NCBI RefSeq assembly: GCF_004684775.1
Contig: NZ_SRIC01000003.1
Coordinates: 39,121-103,120, forward strand
DNA from: Streptomyces sp. MZ04
Lineage (GTDB): Bacteria > Actinomycetota > Actinomycetes > Streptomycetales > Streptomycetaceae
Direction: 5' to 3'
Length of the DNA stretch: 64,000 bases
The translations under genes and the position numbers were made by a program. The notes under the pieces are model-generated. The model saw only the letters and a list, made by a program, of their open reading frames with translations, was not told the origin of the DNA and did no database searches. This document shows, piece by piece, positions 1-7,616 of this stretch (positions are counted from its first letter, which is position 1; each line of letters opens with the position of its first letter).

Positions 1-492
1 CCCGGCGTGGGCCGCGTGCTGCTGCCCGATCCGCTCGCCGGCCGCGTCGCGGCCGCGCTGACCAGAGCCGTGTCCCTGAGCAACAGCGCACTGGCGAACG
101 CCGCGCTCTTCGGGGTCAACGCGGTGGAAGAGGCGTTGCTGTGGTGCGATACGCAGAATCCCCGCGGTGAGCGGATGGACCCGCGCCTCCTCGCCGTGCT
201 CGAGCACCTCAGCAATCGCTTGGCCGCCCCGCACACCGTCGGGTCCCTCGCGCGCGTCGCCGGACTGTCGCGGTCCCGGCTCTCCCGCCTGTTCACCGCG
301 CAGTTCGGGACGAGTGTCATGGCGCATGTCGAAGAGCGCCGCATGGCCGTGGCGTGCCGGCTGCTGCGCCTGTCGTCGCTTCCGGTGCGCGATGTCGCCC
401 GGCAGGTCGGCTACAACGACCCGCTCTACTTCTCCACGCGTTTCCGGCGCGCCCTGGGATGCTCTCCTTCGGCGTACCGCGACGGAGCCTGA
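1..492 (+). CDS. AraC-family transcriptional regulator, C-terminal part (5' end outside window)
   Basis: The frame is open from base 1, so this is the 3' part of a gene that starts upstream of the window. The last ~100 residues form an AraC/XylS double helix-turn-helix DNA-binding domain: the first unit is around LARVAGLSRSRLSRLF and the second carries the family signature VARQVGYNDPLYFSTRF followed by GCSPSAYR. The ~50 residues before it look like the end of a sensor domain, but too little is visible to name the ligand. A methionine codon is not needed at base 7; it is only the first ATG/GTG in the visible frame. Its target is unknown. The family assignment is secure. Confidence 0.88.
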   Translation, partial: PGVGRVLLPDPLAGRVAAALTRAVSLSNSALANAALFGVNAVEEALLWCDTQNPRGERMDPRLLAVLEHLSNRLAAPHTVGSLARVAGLSRSRLSRLFTAQFGTSVMAHVEERRMAVACRLLRLSSLPVRDVARQVGYNDPLYFSTRFRRALGCSPSAYRDGA

Positions 493-531
493 GCCGGGTC
501 GGGACCTGAGCCGGGGCGGCTTGAAATTCGT

Positions 532-560
532 GTGACTCCGGGATCCGGGCCCGCTACCGT
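532..560 (+). promoter_or_regulatory. Probable leaderless promoter of the alaRS-like transcription unit
   Basis: GTGACT (532-537), a 17-bp spacer and TACCGT (555-560) match the Streptomyces vegetative pattern (TTGAC-like, TAnnnT). The -10 hexamer ends 7 nt before an ATG at 568, the usual geometry of a leaderless transcript. The -35 is a 4/6 match, so the call rests mainly on the -10 spacing and on the leader structure downstream. Confidence 0.5.
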
Positions 561-567
561 CGCCCGT

Positions 568-636
568 ATGAACGTCACCGGCCCCAACACCACCGCGACC
601 GCGCGAGCGACCAGCTCGCCGGTTGCCGCCGCCTGA
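568..636 (+). CDS. Candidate leader peptide (22 codons) rich in Ala and Thr
   Basis: This short frame runs ATG to TGA with 22 sense codons. It contains six alanine and five threonine codons, including the run ACC ACC GCG ACC GCG CGA GCG ACC at 589-612, and it ends in three GCC alanine codons just before the stop. It sits 7 nt after a -10 hexamer and so would be translated from a leaderless message. It precedes a gene for an alanyl-tRNA-synthetase-like protein, and its second half lies inside the alternative RNA helices described in the next entry. The composition fits a peptide whose translation rate reports charged tRNA-Ala (or tRNA-Thr) levels. It is too short to have a likely function of its own. 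Confidence 0.5.
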   Translation: MNVTGPNTTATARATSSPVAAA

Positions 637-682
637 CGTACTCCCCCCTCTCCACCGGCGACCGGAAACGGTCCGCCGGTGG
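603..682 (+). promoter_or_regulatory. Candidate ribosome-mediated transcription attenuator
   Basis: Three RNA helices can be drawn. Hairpin 1:2 pairs 603-608 with 614-619, inside the leader peptide. A terminator-like hairpin pairs 652-660 with 674-682 (9 perfect bp), continues with 661-664/669-672, and is capped by a GAAA loop. An alternative helix pairs 619-628 (CCGGTTGCCG) with 656-665 (CGGCGACCGG) over 10 bp with one G-U; it uses the 5' arm of the terminator, so the two exclude each other. A ribosome stalled on the Ala/Thr codons at 589-612 would leave 619-628 free to form the antiterminator. A ribosome reaching the stop at 634 would cover it and let the terminator form. No U-tract follows the terminator, which is common in actinomycetes. 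Confidence 0.5.
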
Positions 683-760
683 TTCCGTGGCTCTCCCGCC
701 TGTGCCGCTGTGCGGACCGCGTCCGGTGCCTCCCCGCCGCGCACGCGAAGGAGCCACCCC

Positions 761-1927
761 ATGAACACCGACCACGTCATCCGTACGTTCGTCGAGTACT
801 TCGAGGACCGCGGTCACCGCCGGATCACCGGCTCGACACTGCTGCCACCGACCGGTGACCCGGTCCTGTTCACCACCTCGGGCATGCATCCCCTCACCCC
901 GTACCTGGAGGGGCGCCCACATCCGCTGGGCAGGCGGCTGGTCAATGTGCAGCGCTGTCTGCGCACCACGGACCTGGAGGAAATCGGCGACTCCACCCAT
1001 CTGACGGTCTTCGAGATGCTCGGCACCTGGTCGCTGGGCGACTACGAGGGCCCGCTGAGCCTCGACTGGGGTTACGGGCTGCTCACCGACGGATTCGGCA
1101 TCGATCCCGGTCTGCTGCACGCCACGGTCTTCGGCGGCGACGACCGGATCGGCCCGGACACCGCCTCCTCGGAGCTGTGGCAGGAACGCGGGGTGCCGGT
1201 GGAGCTCACCGTCGAGGACAACTGGTGGGACAACGGACCGACCGGCCCGTGCGGCCCCGACTCGGAGATCTTCATCTGGACCGGCGCCACCCCGCCCGAG
1301 TCGACGCCGACCGGCGACGACCGCTGGGTGGAGGTGTGGAACCACGTGATGATGCGTCACCGCCGCCTCGACGACGGCTCGCTCGTGCCGCTCCCGCAGC
1401 GCAACGTCGACACCGGGCTCGGCCTGGAACGGCTGGCCGCCGTGCTGCAGGGCCGGACGTCGGTGTTCGACTGCGACCTCTTCGATCCCTGGCGGCGTCT
1501 CGTGCCCGCCCTGTGGGAACTGGACGAACCGTCGCTGCGGCTGGTCTGCGACCACCTGCGCTCGGCCATGGTGGTGATCGGCGACGGGGTGCGCCCGGCC
1601 AACACCGGCCGCGGCTATGTGCTGCGCCGACTGGTACGCCGAGTGCTCACCGTGCTGTGGCGGGACGACCCTTCGCGCGGCCTCGGTGACCTGCCGGACG
1701 AACTCATCCTGCACACCCTGGACCACTTCCGTCAGGAAATGGACACCGACGACGTGCGCCGATCGCTGATCGAGGAGGAGCGCCGCTTCAGTCGACTCCT
1801 CGAGCGCGGCAGGCAGGTACTGGCCCGGCCCCGGTTCCGCGGCCCGCTGGACGACGAGGACTTCCACTACCTCCACGACACCCATGGTCTGCCGCGCGAC
1901 CTGGTCCTGAGCCTGCGTCCGGAGTGA
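761..1927 (+). CDS. Free-standing alanyl-tRNA synthetase-like protein (catalytic and tRNA-acceptor part only)
   Basis: The 388-residue product resembles the N-terminal aminoacylation half of class II AlaRS. A motif 2-like block lies at about 61-95 (VNVQRCLRTTDLEEIG, then FEMLGTWSLGDY), a motif 3-like block at about 215-230 (NVDTGLGLERLAAVLQ), and the tRNA-recognition signature CDHLRSAM followed by GRGYVLRRLVRR at about 263-294. Housekeeping AlaRS is roughly 890 residues; the editing and C-Ala domains are absent here. The start at 761 is chosen for the GAAGGAG ribosome site at 747-753. The gene follows the candidate attenuator. It could make Ala-tRNA as a backup enzyme, or charge another acceptor in a tailoring reaction; the sequence does not decide. 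Without an editing domain it would be expected to lack Ser/Gly proofreading. Confidence 0.85.
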   Translation: MNTDHVIRTFVEYFEDRGHRRITGSTLLPPTGDPVLFTTSGMHPLTPYLEGRPHPLGRRLVNVQRCLRTTDLEEIGDSTHLTVFEMLGTWSLGDYEGPLSLDWGYGLLTDGFGIDPGLLHATVFGGDDRIGPDTASSELWQERGVPVELTVEDNWWDNGPTGPCGPDSEIFIWTGATPPESTPTGDDRWVEVWNHVMMRHRRLDDGSLVPLPQRNVDTGLGLERLAAVLQGRTSVFDCDLFDPWRRLVPALWELDEPSLRLVCDHLRSAMVVIGDGVRPANTGRGYVLRRLVRRVLTVLWRDDPSRGLGDLPDELILHTLDHFRQEMDTDDVRRSLIEEERRFSRLLERGRQVLARPRFRGPLDDEDFHYLHDTHGLPRDLVLSLRPE

Positions 1928-2079
1928 TCGGGGGGCAGCCGGAGAGTGCGTACGGGGGCTGTCCCCAGGGGAGTTGGCCCGGCAGCCCGATGGTCCGATG
2001 CCGCACGCATTCCTAGCGTAGTGATCGATTTCTTCTGCCGATCCGGCAGTTCTTCCATCCAGTCGATCCAAGGAGCACG

Positions 2080-3606
2080 ATGCGCGTCGCCTCAGCAGTC
2101 ACCGCAGGCCTGGCCCTGGCCGGACTGCTCGCCGGCGGAGTGGCCGCCGCGGCCCTCCCCGACCCCTCCGAGCAGCCTCGCCCGCCGGTCGATTGGGGCC
2201 GCTGCTCCGCCGACCAGAAGGCGTTGAACGAGGCGGGGGCGCAGTGCGCGAAGGTGACCGTCCCGCTCGACCACGCCGACCCCGGCGGTCGTACGATCCA
2301 GATCGCGATCTCCCGCATCAAGGCGAAGTCGCCGGGCGAGCGGCGCGGCATCCTGCTCTCGAACCCCGGCGGCCCCGGCGGGACGGGCCTGGCCAACACC
2401 CTCGCCCTGCGCCCCGCGTTGAAGGACGTGGCGGACCGCTACGACCTGATCGGCTTCGACCCGCGCTTCCTCGGCGAGAGCACCCCCGTCACCTGCGGCA
2501 GGTCCCCGCGCCCGACGCCGCCCCCGGAGACCACCACCCCGCGCAAGGACTTCGAGGCCTCGGTACGTTCCGCGCGGGACACCGCACGCCGCTGCCAGGA
2601 GCACGGCGACAACGCCCGGTTGCTGCCCCACGCCTCGACCCGCAACGTCGCCCGCGACATGGACGCGATCCGGGCGGCACTGGGCGAGAGCACGCTCTCG
2701 TACTACGGAGTCTCGTACGGCGCCGACCTGGGCGCCGTCTACACCCAGCTCTTCCCGCGCCGGGCCGACCGGTTCGTCCTGGACTCCTCGACTGATCCGG
2801 CGGCCACGCAGTACGAGCTGTTCCAGCGGTCGGGCGCTCCCGCGGAGGCGGCCTTGGAGGGTCACATACGTTCGGACATACGGAAGTTGCTCGACCGGGC
2901 CGAGCGGCGCCCCATCACGGTCGACGGGCAGCGACTCAATGCCCCGCTACTGCGCATCGTGTTCAAGCAGCTCGTCCAACATGAGGAGAACACCCCACAA
3001 CTGGCCGATGTGGTAAGTGACGTGAAGAAGGCCGCCGCGGGCGAGCTCGACGAGCCGGGGCCCGCGCTCGCCGCGCTCCTGGAACTCCTCGCCTCGCCCG
3101 AGCTGGAGAGCAGCATGGTCGGCGGAGCGATCTTCATGTGCGGCGACGGGGGCTGGCCCGCGGGCGGCTGGCCGAAGAACCCGGAGACGTACTGGAAGAA
3201 CATGCAGCGCAGCCGCGTCACACAACCGGTCTTCGGTCCGTACGTCAACGGAATGATCGCCCCGTGTGCGTTCTGGGGAGCCGAGCCGAAGGAACCCGGC
3301 ACGAGGATCGGCAACGCCGTGCCCCTCCTGATGCTCCAGGCCCGATACGACAACAACGTCCCCTACGACGGTGCCCTCGCCCTGCACCGCAAGCTCACCG
3401 GCTCACGCCTGCTGACGGCCGACATCCGTTCGCACGGCGTCTACGCGCGCGGCAACGACGGCCTCACGCCCATCGCGTGCGCGGACCGGACCGTCAACGC
3501 CTATCTGCGCGACGGGAAGCTGCCCGCGACCGACCTCACCTGCCCCCGACCGACGGACAAGGCGGACAGGGCGGGCAAGGCCGAGAAGACCGAGGTGGAG
3601 CGATGA
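2080..3606 (+). CDS. Secreted alpha/beta-hydrolase, tripeptidyl aminopeptidase type
   Basis: The 508-residue product begins with a signal peptide (charged MR, then a long Ala/Leu/Gly core to about residue 25). It has the architecture of Streptomyces tripeptidyl aminopeptidases: an alpha/beta-hydrolase fold with the oxyanion region LLSNPGGPGG near 92-101, the nucleophile elbow YYGVSYGAD (Ser about 212), and a C-terminal TAP-like domain carrying the acid in ARYDNNVPYDGA and the histidine in RSHGVYARG. It is expected to clip tripeptides from proteins or small amides outside the cell. AAGGAG lies 6-7 nt before the ATG. Its stop overlaps the next start (ATGA), so the two genes are translationally coupled. 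The substrate is not predictable. Confidence 0.88.
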   Translation: MRVASAVTAGLALAGLLAGGVAAAALPDPSEQPRPPVDWGRCSADQKALNEAGAQCAKVTVPLDHADPGGRTIQIAISRIKAKSPGERRGILLSNPGGPGGTGLANTLALRPALKDVADRYDLIGFDPRFLGESTPVTCGRSPRPTPPPETTTPRKDFEASVRSARDTARRCQEHGDNARLLPHASTRNVARDMDAIRAALGESTLSYYGVSYGADLGAVYTQLFPRRADRFVLDSSTDPAATQYELFQRSGAPAEAALEGHIRSDIRKLLDRAERRPITVDGQRLNAPLLRIVFKQLVQHEENTPQLADVVSDVKKAAAGELDEPGPALAALLELLASPELESSMVGGAIFMCGDGGWPAGGWPKNPETYWKNMQRSRVTQPVFGPYVNGMIAPCAFWGAEPKEPGTRIGNAVPLLMLQARYDNNVPYDGALALHRKLTGSRLLTADIRSHGVYARGNDGLTPIACADRTVNAYLRDGKLPATDLTCPRPTDKADRAGKAEKTEVER

Positions 3607-4691
3607 AGGCGAACACTTCGACGATCAGCAGGCGCACCGGCCTGACAGCCACCGCGGCGGCGCTGCTCGCGGGAGTGTCGGGCGCCCCCGGGGCAACGGC
3701 GTCGCAGCGCACACCCCACGCGGCCTCTTCGCTCCAGAAGGACGTAGACGCGATCCGCGCCGCCGGAGTGTCCGGCATCCTCGCCGAGGTGCAGGGCGCG
3801 CACGGCCGTACGAGCGCCCGTGCGGGCGTCGCCGATCTCGCGGCGAAGGGGCCGGTGCCCTGGGGCGCGTACTACCGCATCGGCAGTGACACCAAGACCG
3901 TCACCGCCACCGTCGTACTCCAACTCGTCGGCGAGGGACGGCTGAAGCTCACCGACACGGTCGACCGATGGCTGCCCGGAGCGGTCCGGGGGCACGGCAA
4001 CGACGGCCGCCGCATCACCGTCACCAACCTGCTGCGGCAGACCAGCGGCCTGAACGACTACTTCGCCGCAGGCGCCGGCGACCTCACCCCGGCGAGCTAC
4101 CGCCGCCACCGCTTCCGCTCGCAGACGCCCGCCGAACAGCTGACGGCCGGACACCCCTGGGCGCAAGAGGTCCACGAGCGGATCATCGAACCCCTCGGCC
4201 TGCGCCACACCCTCATCCCCGGCACCTCCTCGTACGTACCGGGGCCGACGGCCACCGCGTACACATACTTCCCCGGCGACTCGCGGCCGGCCGACACGAC
4301 CCTCAACTCCGGAGGAGGAGCGGACGGCGGAATCATCACGACGCCACACGACCACGGTGTCTTTCTGCGCGCCCTGATGAGCGGCCGACTGGTGCGCCCG
4401 GCGCAGTTGGCGGCGATGAAACAGACCGTACCGGCCGCCGATCTGATCCCCGTGCCCGGTGTCCGCTACGGCCTGGGCATCGCCTGGCGGCCGGTGGCCG
4501 GGCGCGACGACGGCATCTGGTTCCACGGCGGGACCAGCCTCGGCTGTGTCTCCGAGTGTGGTGTGACCCCGGACGGCTCCATGGCCGTGACCAGCGCGGC
4601 CTTCACTCTCAGGCTCGGAGGGCCGCAGGCCGCGCGGACGCTGCGGATGGTCGATTCGGCGCTTCGTGCGGGCTCCGGGGGAAGCCGGTGA
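3603..4691 (+). CDS. Secreted serine hydrolase (class C beta-lactamase/DD-peptidase family) with a missing YxN segment
   Basis: The 362-residue product has a signal sequence (SRRTGLTATAAALLAG, possibly Tat-type) and the fold markers of the beta-lactamase/D-Ala-D-Ala carboxypeptidase family. The nucleophile SxxK is RIGSDTKTVTA at about 94-104, and the KTG-box equivalent is FHGGTSLG near 305. The family normally has a YSN motif about 90-110 residues after SxxK. Here the chain jumps from PAEQLTAGHP straight into WAQEVHERIIEPLGL, where relatives carry about 30 further residues with that motif. The reading frame is kept. It is coupled to the upstream hydrolase by an ATGA overlap. Catalysis is doubtful; a binding role or simple decay are both possible. 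Confidence 0.78.
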   Translation: MKANTSTISRRTGLTATAAALLAGVSGAPGATASQRTPHAASSLQKDVDAIRAAGVSGILAEVQGAHGRTSARAGVADLAAKGPVPWGAYYRIGSDTKTVTATVVLQLVGEGRLKLTDTVDRWLPGAVRGHGNDGRRITVTNLLRQTSGLNDYFAAGAGDLTPASYRRHRFRSQTPAEQLTAGHPWAQEVHERIIEPLGLRHTLIPGTSSYVPGPTATAYTYFPGDSRPADTTLNSGGGADGGIITTPHDHGVFLRALMSGRLVRPAQLAAMKQTVPAADLIPVPGVRYGLGIAWRPVAGRDDGIWFHGGTSLGCVSECGVTPDGSMAVTSAAFTLRLGGPQAARTLRMVDSALRAGSGGSR

Positions 4692-4772: not shown

Positions 4773-6545
4773 GTGACCGACACTTCGATCTCCGTATCTC
4801 TGTTCAAGCGCACCGCCATCACCTGTGCGGCCGCCGCCGTGGGGCTCACCCTGTGCGTCCCCGCCGGCTCCGCCACGGCTTCCGCGGGCGATTCCGCGCC
4901 CGGCAGGGCCGATGGCGTGCCCGTGCAGCTCCTGGCGCTCAACGACCTGCACGGCAACCTGGATCCCGTCGACGGCCCGGCCGGCCGTGTGGAGCGCGGG
5001 GGAGGGGGCGGCCTGCAGGCGGGCGGGCTGCCTCAGCTCGCCACGCTGATGAAGGAGGCCCGGAGTGCCGGGCCGAACTCCCTCACGGTGGGCGCGGGCG
5101 ACATGATCGGCGGCAGTCCGCTGCTGTCCGCGCTCTTCCACGACGAGCCGACGATCCACGCCCTGGAGCAGCTCGGGCTCGACGCCAGCTCGGTCGGCAA
5201 CCACGAGTTCGACGAAGGGCCGGACGAACTGCGGCGCATCGCCGACGGCGGCTGCCACCCGGAGGACGGCTGCGCTCCCGGCGGCGACTACGACGGCACG
5301 GACTTCCCCTACCTCGCCGCCAACGTGACCCGTGAGGGCAGTTCGTCGCCACTGCTGCGGCCCTACACCGTCAAGACGCTGCCCGGCGGGCAGCGGATCG
5401 GATTCATCGGCCTCGTCACCAAGGAGGCGCCCGGGTCGATCAACGCCTCGCAGATCCGCGACGTGGAGTTCCATGACGAACTGGCGGTCATCAAACGCTA
5501 TTCGAGCGAACTCAAGCAGCGTGGGGTCGAGGCGCAGGTCCTCCTGATCCATGAGGGCGAGGCCGCGAACGGAGTGGCCGGCAAGGGGGATTGCGACGCC
5601 GATGGCCCCGGGTCCCGACTGCGCGGGCGGATCAAGGAGATCGCCGAGGGGACGCCGAGCGCGGTCGACGTCGTCGTCACCGGCCACTCGCACGACTCGT
5701 TCGAATGTACGGTCACCGACCCCGCGGGCGAGCCGCGCATGGTCACCCAGGCCGACTCCTTCGGCCGTTCCTTCACCGATCTGCGCTTCGGCCTCGACGG
5801 GACCGGAGACGTCATCCGCAAGTCGGTCCGGGCGAGGAATCACGTCGTACCCGTCGACACCCCGAAGCAGCCCGCGATGACGAAACTCGTCGAGACCTGG
5901 CGCAAGCGCTCGGAGGCCGCCGCCGATCGGACCGTCGGCTACATCTCCGCCGACTTGCCCGGCCGCGGCTCCACGGAGCGCGAGACGCCGCTCGGCAGTC
6001 TGCTCACCGACGCCCAGGTGGAGGCCACCCGCGGCTACAAGGCCGAGGTGGCCTTCCTCAATCCCGGCGGCATGCGCGCCGACCTCGTACACAAGGGCGA
6101 CGGGAAGGTCACCTACGCCGACGCGTACCGCACCCAGCCCTTCGACAACCCGCTGTGGACGATGACGCTCACCGGTGAGCAGCTGATCGACGTCCTGAAG
6201 GAGCAGGTCAGCGGCGAGAACGCCGGCGCCCCGCGCTTCCTGCAGCTCTCCTCGGCGCTCAGCTACTCGGTCGACATGAGCCGCGCCGGAGCCGACCGAC
6301 TGCTCGCGGGTACCGTCAGGGTCGACGGCCGGCAGGTGCAGCCCACGGACACCTACCGCGTCACCGTCAACGACTTCCTCGCCAACGGCGGAAACGGATT
6401 CAGTACGTTCACGAAGGGCACGGACCGCGAAGGCGGCGACGTCACCGACCTCGAGGCGATGATCGGCTACCTGAAGGACAACTCCGCCGCGGACGCCCCG
6501 CTCGCCCCTCCGACATCGGGGCGGATCACCTTCCTCGGGGAGTGA
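4773..6545 (+). CDS. Secreted bifunctional metallophosphatase / 5'-nucleotidase
   Basis: The 590-residue product has a signal peptide (ending near ATASA) and the two-domain 5'-nucleotidase layout. The N-terminal calcineurin-like metallophosphoesterase carries the metal-binding motifs LNDLHGNL, GAGDMIGG, VGNHEFDEG and VTGHSHDSFE. The C-terminal 5_nucleotid_C domain spans roughly residues 370-560 and includes FLNPGGMRAD and FLANGGNGF, typical of substrate-stacking and linker regions. It should hydrolyse extracellular nucleotides to nucleoside and phosphate. The GTG start lies 6 nt after a TAGTTT -10 hexamer (4761-4766), so the message is probably leaderless. A Cys-containing insert (GGCHPEDGCAPGG) may form a disulfide loop. 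Confidence 0.9.
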   Translation: MTDTSISVSLFKRTAITCAAAAVGLTLCVPAGSATASAGDSAPGRADGVPVQLLALNDLHGNLDPVDGPAGRVERGGGGGLQAGGLPQLATLMKEARSAGPNSLTVGAGDMIGGSPLLSALFHDEPTIHALEQLGLDASSVGNHEFDEGPDELRRIADGGCHPEDGCAPGGDYDGTDFPYLAANVTREGSSSPLLRPYTVKTLPGGQRIGFIGLVTKEAPGSINASQIRDVEFHDELAVIKRYSSELKQRGVEAQVLLIHEGEAANGVAGKGDCDADGPGSRLRGRIKEIAEGTPSAVDVVVTGHSHDSFECTVTDPAGEPRMVTQADSFGRSFTDLRFGLDGTGDVIRKSVRARNHVVPVDTPKQPAMTKLVETWRKRSEAAADRTVGYISADLPGRGSTERETPLGSLLTDAQVEATRGYKAEVAFLNPGGMRADLVHKGDGKVTYADAYRTQPFDNPLWTMTLTGEQLIDVLKEQVSGENAGAPRFLQLSSALSYSVDMSRAGADRLLAGTVRVDGRQVQPTDTYRVTVNDFLANGGNGFSTFTKGTDREGGDVTDLEAMIGYLKDNSAADAPLAPPTSGRITFLGE

Positions 6546-6546
6546 C

Positions 6547-6579
6547 CTGACCTTTACCGGGACCCTGCCAGTAGGTCAG
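6547..6579. terminator. Weak convergent hairpin
   Basis: CTGACCT at 6547-6553 can pair with AGGTCAG at 6573-6579 across a 19-nt loop, between the convergent nucleotidase and WYL-regulator genes. The stem is short and overlaps the stop codon of the leftward gene, so this is only a tentative bidirectional terminator. Confidence 0.25.
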
Positions 6580-7553
6580 CCTGCCCCGTACCTTCTGGCG
6601 AGTGCGTCGACCGTGTCGGCCATCGCCCGGCGCAGCTCCGCGGGCTCGACGACCTCGACGTCGACACCGAGCCGCAGCAGCTCACCGCACGCGTGGCCGG
6701 TGCTCTCGGTCGGGATGACCGCCTCGACCCATCCGTCGTCGCCGACGGGGGTCGCGGTGGCGTCGACCGCCCGCACCACCTCCGGGGGAAGGTTGTCCGG
6801 CAGGCGTCGGCGACCCCGCCCGGAGAGACGAATGGTGGCCGTGCCGGTGAAGCGGCGCTTCTGGAAGTCGTCGAGGTACGAGGTCCAGTAAGCGGCCAGG
6901 TCGAAGTCCGGCGGCCTGTCGAACTGTTCGTCACCCGGCACCGCGTCCAGGACCTGAGTGACCCGGTACGTCGCGACCTTGTTCTCCGTGGCGGCCACGA
7001 GGTACCAGACGCCGGACTTGAGAACCAGGCCGTAGGGGCGAAGGCGACGCCGCACCTCCTGCGGTGCGCGCCAGCGGCGGTAACGCACCTCCACCACACT
7101 CCGGGTGAGCACCGCGTCGGCGAACAAGGTGAGATACGGCGTCTGTTCGGGCTCCCGGTACCAGGCCGGAGCGTCCAGGTGGAACACCGCCGCGGTCCGC
7201 GCAGCCTCCTCGCGCAGCCCGGCAGGCAACGCGGCTAGCAGTTTCAGCCGCGCCGCCGTCACCTCCGCCGCCAGCCCCAAGTCGGCTGCGGGGCCCGGCA
7301 GTCCGGCGAACAACAGCGCCCGTGCCTCGCCCTGGCTCATCCCGGTCAGCCGGGTGCGATAGCCGTCGAGCAACTGATAGCCGCCTCCGCGGCCCGGCTC
7401 CGCGTACACGGGAACTCCGGCGTCCTGCAGACGCACCACATCACGGTAGGCGGTGCGCACGGACACCCCCAGCTCGTCGGCGATCACTCGCGCGGACACA
7501 CGGCCACGTGATTGCAGCAACAGCAGTACCGACAACAGTCGACCAGCGGACAT
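6576..7553 (-). CDS. WYL-domain transcriptional regulator (HTH_11 + WYL, YafY type)
   Basis: The product is 325 residues when read from the ATG at 7553, which has GGGGAG about 8 nt upstream; a longer frame from 7592 lacks a site. Residues 1-55 form a DeoR-like winged helix-turn-helix (GRVSARVIADELGVSVRTAYRD, with the recognition helix around VSVRTAYRD). A WYL domain follows near residues 140-215 and contains GVWYLVAATEN. A C-terminal WCX extension ends the protein. WYL domains bind small ligands or nucleic acid and control adjacent genes in many bacteria. The divergent neighbour encodes a NIPSNAP protein, the likely target. The shared 104-bp gap holds two CCTGACA repeats 11 bp apart and a GTCAGCTGAC palindrome. 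Confidence 0.88.
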   Translation of the reverse strand: MSAGRLLSVLLLLQSRGRVSARVIADELGVSVRTAYRDVVRLQDAGVPVYAEPGRGGGYQLLDGYRTRLTGMSQGEARALLFAGLPGPAADLGLAAEVTAARLKLLAALPAGLREEAARTAAVFHLDAPAWYREPEQTPYLTLFADAVLTRSVVEVRYRRWRAPQEVRRRLRPYGLVLKSGVWYLVAATENKVATYRVTQVLDAVPGDEQFDRPPDFDLAAYWTSYLDDFQKRRFTGTATIRLSGRGRRRLPDNLPPEVVRAVDATATPVGDDGWVEAVIPTESTGHACGELLRLGVDVEVVEPAELRRAMADTVDALARRYGAG

Positions 7554-7574
7554 GGGCACATTCTCCCCGGAAAC

Positions 7575-7616
7575 CCTGACAGCCCCTGACACGCGGCCGC
7601 CGTAGCGTCAGCTGAC
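7575..7616. promoter_or_regulatory. Candidate operator between the WYL regulator and the NIPSNAP gene
   Basis: CCTGACA occurs at 7575-7581 and 7586-7592, an 11-bp period (one helical turn), and the perfect palindrome GTCAGCTGAC lies at 7607-7616. A TAGCGT -10-like hexamer (7603-7608) overlaps the palindrome. This arrangement suits control of the divergent pair by the WYL protein, but no footprint-type evidence is available. Confidence 0.35.

Follow-up and report, generated by a model that had tools for sequence, protein, structure and literature searches.

The region at positions 523-760 of the window (the whole analysed stretch of 64,000 nucleotides from Streptomyces sp. MZ04) combines a WblC-type promoter motif, a 22-codon leader and mutually exclusive RNA pairings. 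It is probably a ribosome-mediated attenuator, which would raise expression of the downstream gene alaS2 when a ribosome stalls at alanine codons. The attenuator interpretation put forward in a preliminary description of this DNA is supported by our analysis. We confirmed that the leader and its overlapping folds are real and far from chance, as RNA 568-762 folds at -100 kcal/mol compared to -74.2 kcal/mol (sd 4.2) for 200 shuffled sequences (z -6.1). The leader codons sit in segment 1 of a set of helices 1:2, 2:3 and 3:4, as is classical for attenuators. Since there is no U-run, the switch is said here to work like a classical attenuator and is not classed as a proven one.

The gene downstream (positions 761-1927, plus strand) encodes a protein of 388 amino acids, comprising only the catalytic and acceptor-stem domains of alanyl-tRNA synthetase (AlaRS). 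Its residues 7-383 match positions 3-402 of the 552 positions of the Pfam profile tRNA-synt_2c (PF01411, E 3.5e-81). With the match ending at position 402, the editing and C-Ala domains are absent from the protein. The class II catalytic motifs are intact and match those of solved AlaRS structures and of the housekeeping AlaRS of the same genome. The earlier assignment as AlaRS-like therefore stands, but the start of the gene had to be corrected to 761, preceded by the Shine-Dalgarno sequence AAGGAG at 748-753 (plus strand). The source genome is 9.1 Mb in size, and while the window belongs to contig C332, the housekeeping AlaRS is found on another contig as an 892-aa frame, 42% identical to the alaS2 protein. 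Judged from its sequence, the alaS2 product is likely to be an auxiliary AlaRS without an editing domain.

Upstream of this locus, a gene for an AraC-type regulator (HTH_18) on the same strand is cut by the window start (positions 1-492); this family was not among the neighbour families common to alaS2 loci. On the 3' side, alaS2 is followed by genes for a TAP-like peptidase (2080-3606), a serine hydrolase of the beta-lactamase family (3594-4691), a 5'-nucleotidase (4773-6545) and, on the minus strand, a WYL-domain regulator (6576-7592).

To follow the leader in other genomes, 187 loci were compared; the 80 with names had been chosen as the best of 112 relatives. One housekeeping gene and one other AlaRS paralogue (L149, 38% identical) were removed, and one locus (L033) with only 180 nt of upstream DNA was set aside. 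The leader was present before all 184 testable orthologous loci (window included; the collections are partly redundant). In 183 cases it was detected by a regular expression, and in one locus (L004) it takes a 21-codon form. Membership is defined by a 22-codon ...ATARATSSPVAA[AV] ORF located 5' of a short AlaRS gene, and this arrangement is found in the window. Among the 151 distinct regions, 145 had an SD-like match of at least 5 of 7, and segment 3 (see below) was recognised in 144 of these 145 leaders. Each fetched alaS2 locus contained a single AlaRS-like stretch (tblastn, flanks up to 5 kb).

The linkage between leader and gene proved to be strict. A covariance model (R1), built from 44 of 74 representatives, matched 68 of 295 Streptomyces genomes, once each. 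All 67 genus genomes with a near full-length alaS2 match (E below 1e-170) had the leader, and among the remaining 228 it occurred solely in G012, which contains a broken alaS2 remnant. This indicates that in G012 the leader outlived its gene. The remnant (L204:1963-2800, tblastn) lacks query residues about 107-185 and those beyond 293. In the class sample, leader and alaS2 were both present in the same 9 of 246 genomes; in searches over 40 genomes the filters were stricter, so weak leaders could be missed. Two of the 67 alaS2 matches, L099 (G168:C86) and G011:C18, contained one in-frame stop each, reflecting either decay or sequencing error. Control of the housekeeping alaS was rejected, because the only R1 match in the genome precedes the short gene. 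In one genome (G155), a third AlaRS match was observed (C3:216993-218195, its upstream part being L149), with 38% identity and in a frame of 894 aa; the 500 nt upstream of it contained no leader of this type.

When neighbouring genes were surveyed around the 80 named loci and the window (up to 5 kb per side, crude GC-frame ORF filter), no neighbour family was common to more than 8 of the 81 loci. The leader and alaS2 therefore resemble a self-contained unit whose surroundings vary, and a role in a fixed gene cluster was rejected. Horizontal transfer may have contributed to the distribution of the unit.

The leader ORF alaL (MNVTGPNTTATARATSSPVAAA) occupies positions 568-636 of the plus strand, with the stop codon at 634. 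As described earlier, it has 22 codons, including six Ala and five Thr codons. The proposed leaderless start, which we likewise presume, gained support: a TAnnnT motif ends 6-7 nt 5' of the leader ATG in 142 of 143 distinct leaders, compared to 1.9% at random positions, whereas 8 of the 143 have an SD-like tetramer 5' of the ATG. In the window, the -10 hexamer TACCGT (555-560, plus strand) lies 7 nt 5' of the ATG. The -10 motif thus does not lie downstream of 680, where a transcription start had been named as counter-evidence. The -35 hexamer GTGACT (532-537, plus strand) is separated from the -10 hexamer by a 17-nt spacer, and 3 nt further 5' lies a WblC/WhiB7-type box, GAAATT (523-528, plus strand), which agrees with GAAAWY in all six letters at the published spacing. 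The complete layout, GAAATT-CGT-GTGACT-17-TACCGT-7-ATG, corresponds to the WblC consensus GAAAWY-3-TKGMNN-16..19-TANNNT (PMC7157823), with the -35 hexamer at three of its four specified letters.

This promoter class is shared by most leaders. A GAAAWY box matched in at least five of six letters at WblC spacing was present in 125 of 142 leaders (those among the 143 examined that have a -10 motif; background 2.4%), and 87 of these leaders also had the -35 hexamer at three of four letters. The box agrees with published work on S. coelicolor, where the second AlaRS gene alaS2 (SCO7600) is part of the WblC regulon, depends on WblC and is induced by tetracycline; the consensus given there is the one seen at 523-560 (PMC7157823). 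SCO7600 is probably the orthologue of the window gene, because S. lividans, a close relative of S. coelicolor, carries the leader. The main text of PMC7157823 does not contain the word "leader" and names attenuation only for wblC.

While the first half of the leader peptide is variable, its second half shows almost no variation, and this holds largely at the DNA level. Ala is found at codons -13, -11 and -9 in 140, 144 and 145 of the 145 leaders, respectively, so the expected conservation of Ala codons was indeed observed. The Thr codons, which had been considered along with them, are not conserved in the sensing stretch: codon -12 is Thr in 115 and Ala in 30 of the 145 leaders. Codons -14 and -15 vary widely, and Thr, Ile, Phe and other residues exchange at -15, -14 and -12. 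Arg CGA at codon -10 is invariant and Ser -6 is kept by means of TCG, TCC or TCA (both 145/145). The Ala codons lie largely in paired bases, and selection for codons is therefore hard to separate from selection for structure; base 602, which is unpaired in every helix, is the C of an Ala codon in 144 of the 145 leaders.

Four segments of the plus strand form the alternative helices. Segment 1 (595-608), the protector strand, holds Ala codons 595, 601 and most of 607, and pairs with segment 2 (614-628) as 595-601/620-626 and 603-608/614-619. Segment 2 can instead pair with segment 3 (652-665), which is complementary to segments 2, 4 and 5. The antiterminator 619-628/656-665 was found as previously given, with 10 pairs including one G-U. 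The proposed terminator between segment 3 and segment 4 (669-682) was borne out as a hairpin, 652-664/669-682, having 13 pairs, a GAAA loop and a bulged C673, but not as a canonical terminator. No U-run follows it and no terminator-like site with a T-run was detected, with 2.46 T in the 9 nt after the hairpin compared to 1.65 expected.

The helices were evaluated on an alignment (A1) of 97 out of 135 representatives, chosen without long tails and near-duplicates. Paired cells reached 96.9% for helix 1:2, 98.7% for 2:3 and 92.3% for 3:4, against slid-partner controls of at most 52%, 52% and 74%; RNAalifold picked helix 2:3. In each of the three helices, cells changed on both sides exceeded all 500 shuffles. 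The number of pairs with such changes (1, 1 and 3 for 1:2, 2:3 and 3:4) did not, since 499, 498 and 227 of the 500 shuffles reached it. The changed cells in 1:2 and 2:3 come from 16 largely related sequences, and compensatory changes in these two helices may represent one or few events. An exclusive switch predicts a base which co-varies with two partners unable to pair with it simultaneously, and site 623 behaves in this way, co-varying with 598 (helix 1:2) and 661 (helix 2:3). Sites 598/623/661 read A-U-A in 106 and G-C-G in 17 of the 144 leaders. The other 21 were G-U-A (9), A-C-A (6), G-C-A (4) and A-C-G (2); in the last three states, found in 12 of 144 leaders, 623 lacks one or both of its pairs. 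Conservation and compensatory change, proposed as a check on the switch, were therefore found for both helices, though possibly through few events.

The behaviour of a stalled ribosome was then predicted by folding 72 of the 144 leaders (every second one) as RNA ending just after segment 3. The ribosome was assumed to cover 18 nt upstream and 12 nt downstream of the A-site, the value of E. coli. Helix 2:3 had a mean probability of 0.72-0.99 when codons -16 to -9 occupied the A-site (0.84 at -9), and 0-0.11 with the A-site elsewhere or without a ribosome. For the sequence of the window itself, stalling at codon -9 gave 2:3 a probability of only 0.17 before segment 4. The claim that stalling favours the antiterminator thus holds in silico for codons -16 to -9, but of the six Ala codons only 595, 601 and 607 lie there, Ala codons -3 to -1 being outside the sensing stretch. 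Once segment 4 is present, 3:4 beats 2:3 at equilibrium despite the stall (2:3 0.04-0.25, and about 0 for the sequence of the window itself), and the median cost of forcing 2:3 is 3.1 kcal/mol. The switch model therefore needs kinetics, acting during RNA synthesis.

According to the model, translation stress would lead WblC with HrdB to initiate transcription at the leader ATG. A ribosome starved of Ala-tRNA would wait at codon 595, 601 or 607 and cover segment 1. Segment 2 would then pair with segment 3 before segment 4 exists, the 3:4 hairpin would form late and RNA polymerase would pass. A ribosome that arrives at the stop codon at 634 would instead cover segment 2, allowing 3:4 to form immediately, with a predicted halt in elongation. 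On a leader free of ribosomes, 1:2 and 3:4 would form. The alaS2 product would keep Ala-tRNA supplied when the housekeeping AlaRS is limiting or inhibited. From this arrangement we infer that the leader senses Ala-tRNA charge.

A leader of this kind might also respond to slow ribosomes in general, caused by tetracycline, other elongation inhibitors or the CGA codon, and not to Ala-tRNA. Such a response would fit the WblC promoter, the invariant Arg CGA and the ability of any stall at -16 to -9 to open the switch in silico, as well as the tetracycline induction of alaS2 in S. coelicolor, which is however credited to WblC (PMC7157823). The retention of Ala at three codons, while -15, -14 and -12 exchange residues, argues for alanine, as does the AlaRS-like nature of the downstream gene, and the pair A606-U616 is a further constraint on CGA. 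We regard general sensing as unlikely, with some real chance of being correct. The near invariance of the C-terminal half as a peptide, and of Ser -6 across its three codons, might be explained by an arrest peptide, i.e. a nascent chain ending ARATSSPVAA that would by itself arrest the translating ribosome, perhaps together with a drug or metabolite. Lineages in which the system is retained have nevertheless exchanged -8 T for P, S or A, -7 S for R, N, G or C, and -5 P for S or T, and helices 1:2 and 2:3 already constrain most of those bases. In silico, a ribosome pausing at the end of the peptide would cover segment 2 and give the OFF state, and arrest by the peptide appears very improbable.

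Control might also be mainly translational, with 3:4 being no terminator and the alaS2 start hidden or freed by the Shine-Dalgarno (SD) region and a fifth segment (712-727, plus strand). This third competitor is complementary to 661-676, i.e. to the loop and both arms of 3:4, and its strength is similar to that of 2:3 and 3:4. The duplex amounts to -21.8 kcal/mol, compared to -13.1 for shuffled and -20.7 for foreign partners (144 loci), the cognate one being better than the foreign by over 0.3 in 93 loci. Its six core pairs are retained in 94.3% of cells, against at most 55% in slid versions, and two of them show changes on both sides (4 cells); the covariation score was not above that of slid versions. 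Pairing is also possible between the SD region (750-758) and 725-733, and in 105 of 144 loci it is better with the cognate partner than with foreign ones; in the predicted fold, 750-757 pairs with 687-694. The missing U-tract after 3:4 would also agree with translational control. However, SD accessibility did not switch between the states in constrained folding (0.287 vs 0.293), the SD being more open in ON in 13 and less open in 18 of the 144 loci. SD release as the main output is thus not supported, and we consider predominantly translational control quite unlikely. Other pairings were rejected: 4:5 duplexes were no better in cognate than in shuffled form (-17.6 both), 4:SD was weaker than shuffled, and 2:4 and 1:5 were slightly above shuffled but weaker than with foreign partners. 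A T-box or another Rfam element was rejected as well, as the two Rfam matches up to E 5 in window positions 1-3000 included no T-box.

A related arrangement is said to have been described by Vecchione and Sello in 2010, namely an auxiliary TrpRS gene under ribosome-mediated transcriptional attenuation. It likewise places a spare synthetase behind a leader with cognate codons, which are Trp and not Ala. Lopatovskaya et al. reportedly surveyed attenuation in 2010. In the genome analysed here, we observed a similar leader, VTTHAHTQLWWAA, before a second trpS (L209, contig C333, minus strand, 621-662). It looks leaderless, with a -10 hexamer TACGGT 7 nt before GTG, as in S. lividans trpL2. Its box at the WblC position matches in only 4 of 6 letters (weak), unlike the 6 of 6 of alaL in the window. 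In-frame starts of this trpS are possible at 631, 715 and 781, the likely one being about 120 nt past the leader.

The alaL leader itself is already known in outline and is not new. The reannotation of S. lividans TK24, reported in 2021, lists alaL before alaS (SLIV_01313/SLIV_01315) and calls it an attenuator (PMC8079986). The peptide is of the same class (MNVIGRNIFATARATSSPVAAA), with 22 residues, six of them Ala, before an alanyl-tRNA synthetase gene (PMC8079986), and the exact peptide is present in our loci L096 and L114. The novelty implied by the preliminary description, which knew of no alanine leader of this kind, is therefore not supported. Its view that control of actinomycete synthetases is usually described for T-box systems fares no better, as attenuators of the classical type had been predicted upstream of Streptomyces trpS and leuS in 2005 (PMC1262725), in a paper that contains none of the terms alanine, alanyl and alaS. 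The account of alaL in PMC8079986, one table row and one paragraph, gives no alternative pairings, conservation or promoter class, and the words WblC, WhiB7, alaS2 and paralog are absent from its main text. S. lividans trpL2 is also without a U-run and leuL1 without a typical terminator (PMC8079986). In a literature search with little coverage of subscription journals, the leader was found in PMC8079986 only, and nothing linking alaL with WblC was found. What is added here is the comparative anatomy of the switch, its wide conservation, the strict linkage of leader and gene without conserved neighbours, and a conserved third competitor.

As for the role of the enzyme, AcmD, an extra AlaRS of the ascamycin cluster, is more resistant to ascamycin than the canonical enzyme (PMC12945691), and by analogy the bypass of an inhibitor is a plausible role for alaS2. 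AcmF, a truncated AlaRS-like protein, has lost most residues for ATP and alanine (N219Q, D232E; PMC12945691), whereas alaS2 keeps the class II motifs, and an AcmF-like alanyl transferase was provisionally set aside on account of these motifs. In a broader and rather doubtful scenario, alaL-alaS2 would be a scattered self-contained cassette with a two-input gate, in which the WblC promoter would report general translation stress and the alanine-codon attenuator a shortage of Ala-tRNA. The third competitor would pass the attenuator state to the Shine-Dalgarno sequence, so that one ribosome decision would set both transcription and translation, and the editing-less synthetase would confer tolerance to AlaRS inhibitors such as ascamycin.

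With these results, alaL has a testable anatomy and a connection to the WblC stress regulon, and among the genomes searched the leader occurs only with alaS2 or its remnant. If the switch works as predicted, alaS2 would be the second spare synthetase of Streptomyces, after TrpRS, that reads the shortage of its own product. Attenuation specific to alanine would be unusual, since this amino acid is a common one, and it may point to AlaRS inhibitors as the natural signal.
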